A stretch of 51,292 nt of DNA from a virus: the IMG/VR virus record IMGVR_UViG_3300017751_000027, positions 1 through 51,292 of that record. One strand, written 5' to 3'. Below the pieces are notes generated by a model. That model ran no database searches, was not told the DNA's origin, and worked only from the letters and a program-made list of their open reading frames with translations. Of this stretch, positions 11,225 through 19,035 are shown piece by piece (the stretch's first letter is position 1; each line of letters begins with the position of its first letter). Both the position numbers and the translations under genes were made by a program.

Positions 11225-11232
11225 TATTTATA
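11225..11232 (-). promoter_or_regulatory. Late promoter (exact TATAAATA) for the nuclease/ligase-like pair
   Basis: Exact box on the minus strand, 36 bases before the ATG at 11189. It begins inside the T-rich tail of the possible terminator at 11236-11267. Confidence 0.75.
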
Positions 11233-11235
11233 ATA

Positions 11236-11267
11236 AAGGGAGACAGCGTTGCCACTATCTCCCCACC
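11236..11267 (-). terminator. Probable weak terminator before the late promoter
   Basis: On the minus strand GGGAGA pairs with TCTCCC across a long loop and is followed by TTTATTAT. Short stem and broken T-run, so only moderate support. It would separate the early gene at 11293 from the late unit that follows. Confidence 0.45.
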
Positions 11268-13225: not shown

Positions 13226-13253
13226 GTAGTTCCTTCTCTGAATTTCGTGTTTG

Positions 13254-13261
13254 TATAAATA
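13254..13261 (+). promoter_or_regulatory. Plus-strand late promoter (exact TATAAATA)
   Basis: The only exact TATAAATA box that I found reading on the plus strand. It points into a 160-base stretch without protein genes that ends in a plus-strand terminator. Confidence 0.65.
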
Positions 13262-13266
13262 AGATC

Positions 13267-13428
13267 GGGTGCGTGTTAGTACGTGTAAACAACGTAAGAG
13301 GCAAGTGTTTGAGAAATCATACCAGGAATAGCAGACGTAACATCAAGAATGTCCGTGGGGTTCGGGTCTGCCACGTATCAGTCCAGTAAAGAGGGTGATT
13401 ATTCTAGCGAGTAGTCGCCTTTTTTATT
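13267..13428 (+). ncRNA. Predicted plus-strand structured small RNA (about 160 nt)
   Basis: This is a gene-free gap between minus-strand genes. It is bounded by an exact plus-strand late promoter (13254-13261) and a plus-strand terminator (13394-13428). Inside are a hairpin TACGT/ACGTA with a 7-base loop (13280-13296) and a longer helix GCAGAC (13331-13336) with GTCTGC (13366-13371), which encloses ACAT/ATGT. An alternative pairing CGTGG/CCACG competes with it. The 3' end lies antisense to the last codons of the 70-aa gene at 13399. I do not recognise an RNA family. The exact 5' end is inferred from the box. Confidence 0.6.
13394..13428 (+). terminator. Plus-strand rho-independent terminator
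   Basis: GGTGATTATTC (13394-13404), loop TAGC, then GAGTAGTCGCC (13409-13419) gives 11 pairs without a gap, followed by TTTTTTATT. Four pairs are G-U and work only in plus-strand RNA; read from the minus strand they become A-C mismatches, so the structure is strand-specific. Confidence 0.75.
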
Positions 13429-13611
13429 GGGCTGATAAAAAACTCCCAACCCCATAAAACTAGGGCTCCAGCCCCCGAAACCATTACCAAGATTTAGCTG
13501 AGTGCATAACTCCCTTGCTTGTGTTTTATTACTAAACTTCTGCATAATCAGACTACTTCTTTTCTCCACTACCATGTGGATACTATTATCACTCTTGATA
13601 ACATACGACAT
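13399..13611 (-). CDS. Hypothetical protein after helicase 41 (70 aa)
   Basis: The start ATG shares a base with the stop of gene 41 (TAATG type), so it is co-translated. The N-terminal half looks like two strands and a helix (SLIMQKFSNKTQARELC); the C-terminal half is Gly/Trp/Phe-rich (GNGFGGWSPSF). Its last codons lie in the stem of the plus-strand terminator at 13394-13428. No family recognised. Confidence 0.6.
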   Translation of the reverse strand: MSYVIKSDNSIHMVVEKRSSLIMQKFSNKTQARELCTQLNLGNGFGGWSPSFMGLGVFYQPNKKGDYSLE

Positions 13612-15029
13612 TACTTGAATCCCTCAAACTTAGGCTTAGACTTACCCTTGAAACTGAGGACAGTATCGCCATCATTTTCACTGCTCATTCTTTGACCAAC
13701 AGATGTCTTGTTCATCACTGGACTGTCATCCATAAGACCTTGTTGGGCACTCTCTTCAGCATCAAATAAACGCATCTTCGATCTGTCGATACCGACAACG
13801 AAACGCTTGTGAGCATTGGTATCGCCCCAACGATTTTTGAGTTGCTTGATCATCAACTGACCAAGGGATTCTAATTCTTCTGTAGAGATCAAACCAAACA
13901 TAAAGTCAGCCGTTGCGGGTAGACCAAATGATTCTGAGGTGTCTTCTAAGTTCAAGTCAGAACTACTGAACCCAGTTCGATTAGTCTGAGTAGCAGACAT
14001 GATAGGCACATTGAACTCAACAGCAAGACCACGTAACTCTTCTGCGATTGCTTTGATTAGTGTGTAAGAGTTTACACTACCACCCATGCGAATACGAGAA
14101 GACATACAGATGTTCAGATAATCGATGTAGATCATATCTGGCTTGAAGTTACGTTTTAGTTTCAATTCGTTTAGCAGATGTCGGAAGTGATTAGAACCAG
14201 CACTAGCAGTTGGATATTCTTTTACGATCAACTTACCAGTAGACTTATTCTTCACACGACCGAGTCTTTTCTCGTAGACATCACGTGGTACTTCACGCAA
14301 CTGGTCTACAGTCAAGTCTAATAGATTGGCATCGATACGCTCTGCAATACGTTCTTCTGCCATTTCCATTGTGATATAGAGTACATTCAATCCGGCAGTC
14401 AGATTGGCTGCCGCACAGTGGGTCATGAACAATGTCTTACCAACACCTGTACCTGCAAGCGCAACGCTGAGTGATTTACGTGACACACCACCTTTAGTGA
14501 TAACGTTCATCAAATCCAGATCGAATGGAATCTTATCTTCTTTAGTGTGGTAGAAATTGTAACGTTCATCAGAATCATCTAAGTAATCGTGACCCACACT
14601 GTTATCAAAGGATACACCCAGAGCCTTCTCAAGAAGTTCTGGGATAGCACCCTTATCTAATTGTTTGTGATTACCATCTAGCACTAGAATGGACTCACGA
14701 ACAGCATTATAGATGGCTTTGTCTTGACAGAACTTTTCAGTCTTGTCAACCAGCCAGTCGAGGTCAGTCTTATCGTCATACGATAAAGAATCAATCATAT
14801 CATTGATTTGCTTGTATTGCTCCTCATTGATATTAGATTTCTCATCGATAGACACCTTCAATGCACCCTTGGTAGGGATACTATTGTAACTGTCTACGTA
14901 CTGAGCGACCTCGACAAATACAGTCTGGTGTGACTGCTGGTCGAAATAATCATTTTGGAGAAACGGCAGAACCTTTCGTGCATATTCATCATTACTAATA
15001 AGTCCCGCTAAGATTGTTTCTTCGATCAT
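13611..15029 (-). CDS. gp41: Replicative DNA helicase, DnaB/T4 gp41 type
   Basis: 472 residues, like T4 gp41 (475). Walker A AGTGVGKT at 192-199, Walker B MIYIDYLNIC near 300, and the DnaB-type SATQTNRTG segment near 345. It forms the hexameric ring that moves 5'-3' on the lagging strand in the replisome with polymerase 43. The start overlaps the stop of a 40-aa gene (ATGA). It lies downstream of uvsX, the usual order in marine T4-like phages. Confidence 0.95.
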   Translation of the reverse strand: MIEETILAGLISNDEYARKVLPFLQNDYFDQQSHQTVFVEVAQYVDSYNSIPTKGALKVSIDEKSNINEEQYKQINDMIDSLSYDDKTDLDWLVDKTEKFCQDKAIYNAVRESILVLDGNHKQLDKGAIPELLEKALGVSFDNSVGHDYLDDSDERYNFYHTKEDKIPFDLDLMNVITKGGVSRKSLSVALAGTGVGKTLFMTHCAAANLTAGLNVLYITMEMAEERIAERIDANLLDLTVDQLREVPRDVYEKRLGRVKNKSTGKLIVKEYPTASAGSNHFRHLLNELKLKRNFKPDMIYIDYLNICMSSRIRMGGSVNSYTLIKAIAEELRGLAVEFNVPIMSATQTNRTGFSSSDLNLEDTSESFGLPATADFMFGLISTEELESLGQLMIKQLKNRWGDTNAHKRFVVGIDRSKMRLFDAEESAQQGLMDDSPVMNKTSVGQRMSSENDGDTVLSFKGKSKPKFEGFK

Positions 15030-15148
15030 TCCTCTTTTAGCTCCTCTAACAATTGCTGTATTTCGATTAGTTTTTCAACTAGTGCTTTGGTGTAATCAAC
15101 GTCTTGGACACTAGCTGTGTCCAATTCAATTTCAAGCTTCAGTTTCAC
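15026..15148 (-). CDS. Short helical protein between uvsX and gp41 (40 aa)
   Basis: A GTG at 15148, with GAGGAA 9 bases upstream, opens a frame that overlaps the uvsX stop and ends in a TGA overlapping the gp41 ATG. The product, MKLKLEIELDTASVQDVDYT and then a Leu/Ile/Glu heptad-like helix (VEKLIEIQQLLEELKEE), could form a coiled coil. I recall a similarly placed short acidic protein in cyanophage relatives. Function unknown. Confidence 0.7.
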   Translation of the reverse strand: MKLKLEIELDTASVQDVDYTKALVEKLIEIQQLLEELKEE

Positions 15149-16199
15149 TTTCAACTTCCTCAATCTCATCGGAGATCAACGCACCGTTAGCCATACTGTA
15201 TCGTTTACGAATAGCATCAGCTAAATCGGTTTTAGTCAACATCATCTTCCAGAAGTCACCGTTGACAGCAAACTCTTTCGCTCTCATAAGTTTATCTGAA
15301 AGTACCTCACCAGTACTTGGATTTACAGCCTCGTACCAGCCCACTTTAGGTTTATTGATATAACCTAACTTCTCACTAATATCAAGTAGTCCAGACCACT
15401 TACTTATGCCACCCTCAAAGGTAACTGTAATCGGGATCTTAGACTTCTCACGCACATGACGTGATTTCTCGATATTGATGACAAAGTGATAACCTGCAAT
15501 CTCGGTGCCTTCTTTCTCTTGTTGGCGACCAATGATCCAGATAGCATCTGAACTGTAGTAAGAACCAGTACCGCCAGACACGATGTCTTTAGGGAACATA
15601 CCGATCTCTTTGTACGTGTGGTTGACACATACTAACGGGATGTCTTTTAGGTTCAAGTGTGGCGTGACGATACGGAACAAAGACTTCAATTGCTTTGCAC
15701 GTGACATATCTGCCACTGACTTACCATCCAGTGCATCATCTACTTCTTTCTTCGAAGCAAGGTTACCGATAGAGTCGATAATGATAACGACTTTCTCACC
15801 CTTGTCAATTTGGTTCAATTGAGTTGTAATATCAAACTTGAGTTGCTCTACGTCAGTAATAGGCGTATGCAACACTCTGTCAAGATCAATACCAAAACTC
15901 TCAAAGTATGACTGTGGAGTACCAAACTCCGAGTCATAAAACAGTACGACAGCATCATCGTACTTTTTCTGATATGCGGCAGCCATCATCAGCGCAAAAG
16001 CTGACTTGAAGTGTTTCGATGGTCCAGCAAGCATCAGAAGCCCAGGAACAAGGCCACCATCAATGCGACCAGATAGTGCTACGTTTACCATAGGTACTGG
16101 TGTAGTAGCCATCTCTTTTTTGCCATAGACTTTAGAGTCCATAATTGGCGCAGTCTGCTTGATAGAACTGTTCTTCATTAGTTTTTCAATTAGCGACAT
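15132..16199 (-). CDS. uvsX: RecA-like recombinase UvsX
   Basis: 355 residues. The Walker A loop is GPSKHFKS (about 59-66), the form typical of T4 UvsX, followed by VVLFYDSEFGTPQSY and VVIIIDSIGNL (Walker B). It forms filaments on ssDNA with the help of UvsY and drives strand exchange and recombination-dependent replication. Sigma70-type promoter at 16232-16260. The YDSEFGTPQ codons are part of a perfect 30-bp repeat shared with the dUTPase gene. Confidence 0.96.
   Translation of the reverse strand: MSLIEKLMKNSSIKQTAPIMDSKVYGKKEMATTPVPMVNVALSGRIDGGLVPGLLMLAGPSKHFKSAFALMMAAAYQKKYDDAVVLFYDSEFGTPQSYFESFGIDLDRVLHTPITDVEQLKFDITTQLNQIDKGEKVVIIIDSIGNLASKKEVDDALDGKSVADMSRAKQLKSLFRIVTPHLNLKDIPLVCVNHTYKEIGMFPKDIVSGGTGSYYSSDAIWIIGRQQEKEGTEIAGYHFVINIEKSRHVREKSKIPITVTFEGGISKWSGLLDISEKLGYINKPKVGWYEAVNPSTGEVLSDKLMRAKEFAVNGDFWKMMLTKTDLADAIRKRYSMANGALISDEIEEVESETEA
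15911..15940. repeat. 30-bp perfect repeat, copy 1 (inside uvsX)
   Basis: These 30 bases are identical, in the same orientation, to 22603-22632. In uvsX they encode YDSEFGTPQ, a conserved part of the protein just after the Walker A region, so this copy is probably the source. The bases on both sides differ. Confidence 0.95.
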
Positions 16200-16261: not shown

Positions 16262-16525
16262 TCAACTATTATAGATTTCGAACAGCTTGGCTTCGAATTC
16301 TTCGATCTTCGCTGTTCTGTTTGGCCAGAGAATGTACTCTTTCTCTGGGTTCTTTTTCAGATTAGCCAGCAACGGTGCAATAGCATTGTACAACTTGTCT
16401 AATGTTTCTTGCGTTGCTTCTGCCGTGCTTGATGCGGCGGCTACCTTTTCTTCGACAGCCTTGACTGCCTGTAATTCGTCTTCGTCTACGGCTGTAAAGC
16501 CGAAATCAAATATATCATCGCTCAT
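16262..16525 (-). CDS. Conserved T4-like phage protein between gp43 and uvsX (87 aa)
   Basis: The ATG at 16525 overlaps the gp43 stop (ATGA). The protein starts MSDDIFDFGFTAVDEDELQA, has an Ala-rich helix, then LYNAIAPLLANLKKNPEKEY and YILWPNR. This pattern is strongly conserved at the same place in marine T4-like phages. The role is unknown; the constant place next to polymerase and recombinase suggests a replication or recombination accessory. Confidence 0.8.
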   Translation of the reverse strand: MSDDIFDFGFTAVDEDELQAVKAVEEKVAAASSTAEATQETLDKLYNAIAPLLANLKKNPEKEYILWPNRTAKIEEFEAKLFEIYNS

Positions 16526-19035
16526 GAGAAAAAATCCTCCAATGTGTTAGTCTCTTCTAAGTTCCAGTTGATAGCATCACTGACCAGCTTTAGTGGCTCT
16601 TTGAATGTCTTATCGAACTGAGTTTGATAATCTATGTATGTGTCTAGATCGAACTCTTTAGGCAAGAACTGAGGAAACGAGATGACGTTCTCTCTCAGTG
16701 GATTAGGGGTTTTGAGATAGCAGAACTTTACTTTGCTACCATCTTTGATACCCTCCATTACTCTATCAAGTCCAGTCTCTTTCATTTTGTGGTTGAACAT
16801 AATCGCACCACGCACATGTATAGGTGTGCCTTTCTTGTACATAGTGGTCGTATCTCTCCACTTTGTTAGATCGGATACGCCACGTGGAAACGAGACGCTT
16901 TCGGCAGGTAGGCTAGTAAACTCTTCATAGAAGTCAGACACGAACTTCTGTAACTCACTCTCACTACCACTCAAAATAATCTGGTACGCTTGCTTGAACT
17001 TATCACGCACTACTTGAGGTGTCGATGACTTGACTGCCTCAATGCCCATGATCTTTAGTTTAGGCACTGCGTACTGCACACCTTCATTATTATGTACGTT
17101 CAGAATGTACCGCTTCTTAGCAGTCCAAACACCACGATCAGCAATAGCTTCACGTGCCATCTCCATACGATTTTCGTATGCATTCATTCGGTCAAACAAC
17201 ACAGCATAAGAACGCTCTAGAACTGGCTCAAACTTTTCTTGGCAGGCTTTGTCAATAAACTTCACTGGATCAGAAGGGTTTACCATCTTGACCAGTGGTG
17301 CCATGTCAACATAAAGAGAGTCAGTATCGATAGCAATTACATAATCTTCTTCATCGGTCTTGAGTAGTTTGTTCATGTATTTGTTCATGGCTTTCTCAGC
17401 CCATCGAACAGATAGTTGACCAGATAATGTAATGCCTTCAGCAATGGACATTTCGAAGTAACGGAAGTATTGATTGCCGAGTGCGCCATAAAGCGAGTTG
17501 AGCAAAATCTTGACCGCTTGCTGTGTGTTGTTTAGTCTATTTATCTCTCGCTTCAAGTCGTGGGAGCCATCAGACTGAGATTCTTGCTGTAACTCAAGCA
17601 TCTTGTTCTTAGTCTCACGGCGTTCATTGTACAGATCAATAATGATCTCAGGCATGAAACCACGTTTGTCTTTACGATATGTAGATCCATTTGCGGCGAT
17701 AGCGACACCGTGATTCAACTGTGCATCGGATACAGGAGTATCATTTGCGAGATAAGTATCAACACCCATGGGATACATATCAGCCGGGGTGCGTATCAAC
17801 GTCTCGGGCGACATGTTGTACTGTACAATTAGGTTAGGGTACAGACTGTTCAAGTCAAACGAGGTAATCCATTCACTCATGCCAACACGTGGGTCTTTCA
17901 CATAACCACCAGGATATGGATTCTTGTGCTTATCTTTGTTTGGTGGTACAGCAATCTTACGTTCAGACAAGTAGCGATAGATGATAGAATCCCATATGCC
18001 CGTAGTACCGAACACATCTGGGTAATTCACACCACCTTTGTATGCGATTACGAGAGCCAAGTCCATAAGACCAGTCTCTTTGTCAATGCGGTCAACTAGA
18101 TCAACGTCTCGTATGTTATAGTCGATGAACTTCTGGTGATTCTCTTTGTATAGATTGTGTAGAGTACCGAACTCTTCATAAGATATCTTCTTCTCACCGA
18201 GAACTGTATGAGCAATATGGTTGAGTGCATAACTCTCTTGATTACCATACGTGTAGCCAAACTTCTGAAACAGATCATAGTAGTCAACTTGGGCAATGCC
18301 GTAAAGTTCATATGCATCCATCGACTTACCCTTGATGCCGATCTGACGGTGCTTGTATATCTTCCAAGGAGAGTATAGTTTGGTAGTCTCTTCGCCACAT
18401 ACTTTGAGTGTACGATTGATCATGTACGGGATATCGAACAAGCGAATGTTCCAACCAGTGATGATGTCAGGCGTGTTATTCTGCCAGAAGACCAGAAACT
18501 TTTCGATCAGGTCTTTCTCATTGTCACAGTGACGATACTGTATCAACTCAATACTATCTAGTTCGCTCTTGGTAGAGTCATAATGACCTAGACCCCATAC
18601 ATGATAGACTTTGCTTTTGCTGTCTTTGTATGCGATAGAGATGATAGGATGATCAGCTTGCTCTGGGTGAGGAAAGCCATCGTCTGATGCAACCTCGATA
18701 TCGATATTACCAACACAGATATGTCGCAACTTATAATCGATCTCACCAGGGAACGCCTTCTCAATGAACTGTGCCACGAAGTTGTTGTTGCCGTGAACTT
18801 TGAAGTTGTCTACGTCTGCGTAACTCTTAGAGAATTCTTGCGCTTCAGACATACTATCGAACTGCATAGGTTCAACCGCACTACCGTCTAGTGCTTTCCA
18901 CTCAGACGATTTGTTAGATGGGACGAATAGTGTTGGCTTGAATGGCACTCTCTTGTGAATGCGTTGACCGTCGGCTGTGTAGCCACGGAATAGCATCTTG
19001 TTGCCATATCTATGTACGGAAGTGTAAAAACTCAT
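16522..19035 (-). CDS. gp43: Family B DNA polymerase, T4 gp43 type
   Basis: 837 residues (T4: 898). Exonuclease motif NIDIEVASD at 110-118; polymerase motif A DLNSLYP at 394-400, motif B KILLNSLYG at 509-517, motif C AIDTDSLYV at 568-576. All catalytic acids are present, so it should polymerise and proofread. It works with clamp 45 and loader 44/62, all in this window. Sigma70-type promoter at 19105-19133. Confidence 0.97.
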   Translation of the reverse strand: MSFYTSVHRYGNKMLFRGYTADGQRIHKRVPFKPTLFVPSNKSSEWKALDGSAVEPMQFDSMSEAQEFSKSYADVDNFKVHGNNNFVAQFIEKAFPGEIDYKLRHICVGNIDIEVASDDGFPHPEQADHPIISIAYKDSKSKVYHVWGLGHYDSTKSELDSIELIQYRHCDNEKDLIEKFLVFWQNNTPDIITGWNIRLFDIPYMINRTLKVCGEETTKLYSPWKIYKHRQIGIKGKSMDAYELYGIAQVDYYDLFQKFGYTYGNQESYALNHIAHTVLGEKKISYEEFGTLHNLYKENHQKFIDYNIRDVDLVDRIDKETGLMDLALVIAYKGGVNYPDVFGTTGIWDSIIYRYLSERKIAVPPNKDKHKNPYPGGYVKDPRVGMSEWITSFDLNSLYPNLIVQYNMSPETLIRTPADMYPMGVDTYLANDTPVSDAQLNHGVAIAANGSTYRKDKRGFMPEIIIDLYNERRETKNKMLELQQESQSDGSHDLKREINRLNNTQQAVKILLNSLYGALGNQYFRYFEMSIAEGITLSGQLSVRWAEKAMNKYMNKLLKTDEEDYVIAIDTDSLYVDMAPLVKMVNPSDPVKFIDKACQEKFEPVLERSYAVLFDRMNAYENRMEMAREAIADRGVWTAKKRYILNVHNNEGVQYAVPKLKIMGIEAVKSSTPQVVRDKFKQAYQIILSGSESELQKFVSDFYEEFTSLPAESVSFPRGVSDLTKWRDTTTMYKKGTPIHVRGAIMFNHKMKETGLDRVMEGIKDGSKVKFCYLKTPNPLRENVISFPQFLPKEFDLDTYIDYQTQFDKTFKEPLKLVSDAINWNLEETNTLEDFFS

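Follow-up and report, generated by a model that had tools for sequence, protein, structure and literature searches.

The plus strand of a 51,292-base virus record from an uncultured aquatic phage (IMG/VR IMGVR_UViG_3300017751_000027, positions 1 to 51,292; hereafter the window) carries what sequence comparison indicates is almost certainly a standalone noncoding RNA gene, belonging to a large and real family in uncultured T4-like phages. The explanation that we consider best, with moderate preference, is a late structured RNA that acts in trans and is probably bound by protein. A sequence-only reading of the window had proposed a plus-strand late phage small RNA gene at this place, and conservation, covariation, wobble pairs specific to one strand, and the accompanying promoter and terminator all lend it strong support. 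Conservation of the pairings and of the promoter box in relatives, set beforehand as the test on which the proposal could fail, was looked for and found. The unit and its neighbours comprise, by window position:

13254–13261, plus strand: T4-type late promoter box TATAAATA, an exact match, with a predicted start near 13267.
13267–13425, plus strand: predicted RNA of about 158–159 nt, one transcription unit, delimited by box, terminator and covariance models.
13270–13275, plus strand: 5' strand of helix P1, UGCGUG, pairing with 13372–13377.
13280–13296, plus strand: P2 hairpin (13280–13284/13292–13296), from covariation.
13298–13305, plus strand: single-stranded GAGGCAAG, near-invariant in the member alignment.
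13306–13321, plus strand: P3 hairpin, the weakest helix in the alignments.
13325–13330, plus strand: conserved single strand GGAAUA between P3 and P4, from the alignment.
13331–13371, plus strand: P4 stem-loop (13331–13336/13366–13371), from covariation, enclosing P5 and P6.
13340–13352, plus strand: P5 hairpin (13340–13343/13349–13352), absent from distant clades.
13353–13365, plus strand: P6, three pairs (13353–13355/13363–13365) and a 7-nt loop, UGGGGUU (13356–13362), from covariation and loop invariance.
13372–13377, plus strand: 3' strand of P1, CACGUA, from covariation.
13389–13425, plus strand: intrinsic terminator, hairpin 13389–13424 and T-run 13420–13425, from fold and conservation.
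13399–13611, minus strand: small conserved open reading frame (ORF) of 70 aa, 3' of gp41; a neighbour outside the RNA, its last codons overlapping the terminator.
13611–15029, minus strand: gp41 DnaB-like helicase (phrog_19, E 1.8e-121), the syntenic anchor.

The promoter box occurs 12 times in the window against 2.7 expected, 11 times on the minus strand and once on the plus strand. All 11 minus-strand copies sit 21–62 nt upstream of a minus-strand gene start, the behaviour expected of the known T4-type late promoter. About 98% of the predicted coding in the window lies on the minus strand, bearing out the earlier description of a minus-strand genome segment around the RNA. The exact plus-strand box pointed out in the same reading is present and conserved across members; because a lone plus-strand copy is at chance level (about 1.3 per strand), the box alone was no proof and conservation had to decide. 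The exact sequence precedes 59 of 68 members, with variants preceding the remainder, and a late box lies upstream of all 77 further, distant members (77/77). The late promoter of cyanophage S-PM2 is NATAAATA and that of T4 and KVP40 is TATAAATA (PMC2984593); the RNA unit has the layout of a T4-type late transcription unit, with a NATAAATA box a few bases before its start. The window also holds a gp45-type clamp gene (phrog_223).

A terminator hairpin and T-run 3' of the box had likewise been called correctly. The hairpin (13389–13404/13409–13424) has 16 pairs in the fold and a z-score of −6.4, none of 200 shuffles being as stable. A terminator is present downstream of 67 of 68 members; the contig of the one exception stops short. 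The claim that four of 11 terminator pairs are G-U was roughly right, the fold giving 3 of the 11 inner pairs and 5 of 16 overall. Folding z-scores for the whole unit were −4.0 (13262–13428) and −2.7 (13267–13424). A second late box lies within 150 nt downstream of the RNA in 72 of the 77 distant members, which indicates that the next gene there has its own promoter. Elsewhere in the window, a strong minus-strand terminator-like hairpin (11237–11264; 12 pairs, 6 of them G-C) stands directly before the late box at 11225, the same arrangement of terminator beside fresh late promoter as is found 3' of the RNA in the same-strand clades.

The family was assembled by several routes. A profile search with 13226–13450 in loci fetched via the gp41 protein alone revealed ten divergent relatives, each arranged like the window, with the RNA just 3' of gp41 on the opposite strand; the aligned relatives share the late box, GGGTGCG, AAGAGGCAAG, AGGAA and TGGGGTT. 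Covariance model R1 added members in gp41 loci in which the RNA lies on the same strand as gp41 (L021, L069, L026, L015, L023 and L019). Two pattern scans of IMG/VR, neither of which required gp41, each returned at least 120 stretches, and all but one of the searched loci were confirmed by model. Altogether, well over 100 IMG/VR contigs of uncultured T4 relatives carry the unit. The window's own RNA scored 121.5 bits with R1 and 85.3 bits with R2, the E-values of these models being rough. One locus outside the two RNA clades (L024:7282–7461, plus strand) may hold a very divergent member; it combines a good terminator with a GGUAGGGGUUUCC loop region, scored a weak 21 bits with R1 and was missed by R2. 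One carrier contig, IMGVR_UViG_2651869530_000001, has an IMG number outside the metagenome series; it may be of single-cell or isolate origin and could point to the host.

Compensatory change beyond controls, together with strand-specific wobble pairs, identifies the product as a structured noncoding RNA. RNAalifold, applied to a structure-free alignment of 14 sequences (three of them from a motif scan), returned 25 pairs, 14 with compensatory changes. In the six-helix model (P1 closing, P2, P3, and P4 enclosing an optional P5 and P6), 97.2% of cells were paired, a level reached in none of 500 shuffles, and the covariation score of 0.452 (0.191 when shuffled) collapsed when the model was slid by one column. 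Two-sided changes were found in all 29 pairs among 58 members, and in 21 of 25 pairs among 77 further members (score 0.601 versus 0.195 shuffled). Alignments A4 and A5, unlike A1, were built by fitting to covariance models, a procedure that favours the structure. In a scan of all alignment column pairs, proposed pairs took the top 12 places and no alternative pairing or pseudoknot was conserved. Wobble cells were G-U in 85 cases and A-C in 3, an asymmetry that points to selection on plus-strand RNA.

Individual helices were recovered with differing strength. P1 was paired in 98% of cells and P4 in 100%, each with two-sided changes in all 6 pairs (P1 among 58 members), and the UACGU/ACGUA of P2 changes jointly to UGUGU/ACACA in relatives. 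P2 and P4 correspond to the 5-pair hairpin and the GCAGAC/GTCTGC helix of the sequence-only reading, both of which are thus real and covarying; the CGTGG/CCACG helix that it had set in competition with the latter, as in a switch, showed no two-sided changes, its outer pair forming in only 4 of 14 sequences, and we discard it. P3 was paired in 72–90% of cells across alignments, with 90% in the 14-sequence set and 87% among the 58 members, its register slipped in the window and in one relative (L002). All three pairs of P6 change on both sides (CCG/CGG, AGG/CCU, CAC/GUG, CAG/CUG). Some 20 unpaired bases in the junction and one loop are near-invariant: GGAA is kept in 58 of 58 members, the GAGGCAAG element takes GGCACG/GGCACAG variants in distant members, and the UGGGGUU loop of P6 is present in 58/58 members and in 17/17 loci found without any motif requirement. 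Motif invariance is partly a matter of construction, because most members came from scans that demanded portions of these motifs; helix covariation is not imposed by that requirement.

The RNA gene lies beside T4-like replication genes on the minus strand of the window, which include gp43 (16522–19035), UvsX (15132–16199) and gp41 as well as the clamp and clamp loader. gp41 was near the RNA in 64 of 67 loci of the first set and 69 of 77 of the last, the remainder having little gp41-side sequence. Relative orientation differs between clades: in the window's clade the RNA is read from the strand opposite to gp41, whereas in distant clades RNA, gp41 and small ORF all share one strand. This reversal argues that the antisense overlap with 13399–13611 is not ancestral, and that the RNA acts in trans rather than in cis. 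The earlier claim that the 3' end is antisense to the end of that gene therefore holds for the window, where the overlap is real, and is clade-specific beyond it. The small ORF itself was considered as an obligate partner of the RNA and rejected: homologues accompany the RNA in 98 of 121 loci, but some RNA-less phages have them too. Its protein family, encoded directly 3' of gp41 in most carriers, has a motif near HLNLGGGFDGWTPSFFL, and the protein of 13399–13611 gave no Pfam or PHROG match. In a close relative (L004:6905–7387), the small ORF is followed by genes that by eye resemble the iron–sulphur assembly proteins IscA and IscU/NifU, and a NifU-like gene is annotated close to gp41 in phage C48C1.

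On a gp41 tree, the RNA is present in 50 rows: 18 of 20 in the window's clade and 32 of 33 in a second clade. Its distribution required 5 changes, compared with about 37 when shuffled, a count that took C48C1 (L098) as RNA-bearing, whereas C48C1 lacks the RNA by model search. The two RNA-less rows of the window's clade (L004 and L013) have only 953 and 640 bases of downstream sequence. The RNA is kept among phages whose gp41 has diverged to about 56% identity; a regular-expression search revealed no divergent copies in RNA-less gp41 loci. R2 found nothing convincing in 16 phage records (C48C1, S-CREM1, S-SM2, HTVC008M, P-SSM2, S-PM2, T4, AG-345-E02, AG-345-L05, P-SSM7, syn9, S-H38, Sf-CH5, Melnitz, phiM12 and phiM9), and blastn of seven members against sequenced phages gave no matches, or short chance or terminator-like ones only. 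Among 84,980 bacterial and archaeal genomes, a first pattern had no matches and a looser one matched 11 stretches, all of which failed the model. The window and the loci of seven distant members yielded no match at the gathering threshold with the 4227 models of Rfam 15, and permissive scans gave matches only far below it. Judged by sequence and structure against Rfam and the open-access PMC literature, the family is new, with no match to known ones.

Two carriers, L232 and L247 (records of 164 kb and 108 kb), contain a permuted alphaproteobacterial tmRNA (RF01849; L232:18249–18599 and L247:13782–14089, both plus strand; 88 and 124 bits), for which ARAGORN gave the tags ANDNSPIEMRLAA and ANDNNASRLALAA, alongside about 30 tRNA genes. 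These genes weakly suggest alphaproteobacterial hosts for the carriers. The clue is weak because phage Melnitz carries such a tmRNA yet infects OM43, such genes being known in marine phages (PMC9004378). psbA, sought as a further host clue, was absent from nine carrier records.

How might the RNA function? We envisage that gp55-type late machinery would transcribe an RNA of about 159 nt late in infection, which would fold into a multibranch structure closed by P1 and expose three unpaired elements of near-invariant sequence, two at the junction (GAGGCAAG and GGAAUA) and the third, UGGGGUU, in the P6 loop. Taken together, these elements could offer a phage or host protein a single surface to bind, the folded RNA acting in trans as an RNA–protein particle or a protein decoy. 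Of the components of this model, action in trans is highly probable from the comparison of clades, and protein binding as the main mode is an even call. The chief competitor is a base-pairing small RNA, in which the UGGGGUU loop or GAGGCAAG seeds pairing late in infection with C-rich sites in host mRNAs, or in a few phage mRNAs. Strictly conserved hairpin loops such as that of P6 are typical of seed regions, the U-rich terminator tail fits Hfq-type small RNAs and the gene is a standalone late one. However, the complements of the three invariant motifs were not enriched at start regions in seven carrier phage genomes and were not shared by carrier tRNAs or tmRNA, and the conserved elements are scattered across a rigid multi-helix fold. 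The spread of the invariants over several unpaired segments, together with the lack of enrichment of their complements, favours protein binding over pairing with phage mRNA, and we regard base pairing as unlikely, if the most serious of the alternatives.

The remaining alternatives fare worse. A compact fold with about 20 near-invariant unpaired bases would suit a self-cleaving or otherwise catalytic RNA, which we nonetheless judge improbable, given that no Rfam ribozyme family matched and that a standalone unit offers no reason for cleavage. The conserved unpaired bases of the junction and the closing terminator also recall a riboswitch or attenuator, placed in the 5' leader of some late gene. 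Yet the window has no plus-strand gene downstream, the terminator is succeeded by a new late box in 72 of 77 same-strand members, no alternative pairing is conserved and the RNA does not occupy the leader of a regulated gene as elements of the manA, wcaG and glnA type do; the separate downstream promoter in particular argues against a leader element, making this reading very improbable. Scarcely credible are two further proposals. Control of the small gene 13399–13611 by a cis-antisense RNA would draw on the overlap of the terminator with its last codons in the window, but in distant clades the RNA shares its strand with gp41 and the small ORF, conservation is concentrated in the structured core, which the overlap does not reach, and a conserved antisense overlap with one gene, as in CfrI, was not found. 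A DNA element (an origin, or a site of packaging or recombination) with a single-stranded DNA fold near the replication genes would account for the constant position adjoining gp41, but not for the 85:3 excess of G-U over A-C, which marks selection on the RNA of one strand, or for the promoter and terminator kept alongside.

A trans-acting, probably protein-bound late RNA thus remains our preferred explanation. More tentatively, and below even chances, the class, near-universal in two aquatic T4-like clades, might represent a new late mechanism, whether an RNA–protein machine, a decoy for host or defence proteins, or a catalytic RNA. Few late small RNAs have, to our knowledge, been described from T4-like phages. 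An RNA so conserved, nearly always retained in its clades and equipped with its own promoter and terminator, is very likely needed for infecting aquatic bacteria, and P1–P6 with the three invariant elements provide a ready search model for metatranscriptomes and, with a host in culture, for mutant tests.

Several known RNAs share features with this one. The stable RNAs C and D of T4, whose function is unresolved, are likewise short and noncoding, but are encoded in the T4 tRNA region, and R2 finds nothing in T4. Trans-acting bacterial small RNAs with intrinsic termination have the same layout of own promoter, structured body and Rho-independent terminator; the present RNA differs in being confined to phages as tested, in its T4-type late promoter and in that its invariant motifs showed no enriched complements at the start regions of the seven carrier genomes. 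CfrI of cyanophage S-PM2, about 225 nt long, is also a small RNA at a defined intergenic place in a T4-like aquatic phage, and lies antisense to two genes, psbA and one for a homing endonuclease (PMC12197685, PMC2984593); unlike CfrI, the RNA described here combines a strongly covarying fold with the lack of any conserved antisense partner, its nine examined carrier records lack psbA, and R2 found nothing in S-PM2. The manA, wcaG and glnA RNAs are likewise structured RNAs of T4-like marine phages (Rfam; PMC2864571, PMC12197685), but whereas they are cis elements in 5' leaders, the present RNA is an independent unit, flanked by a late promoter and a terminator of its own.
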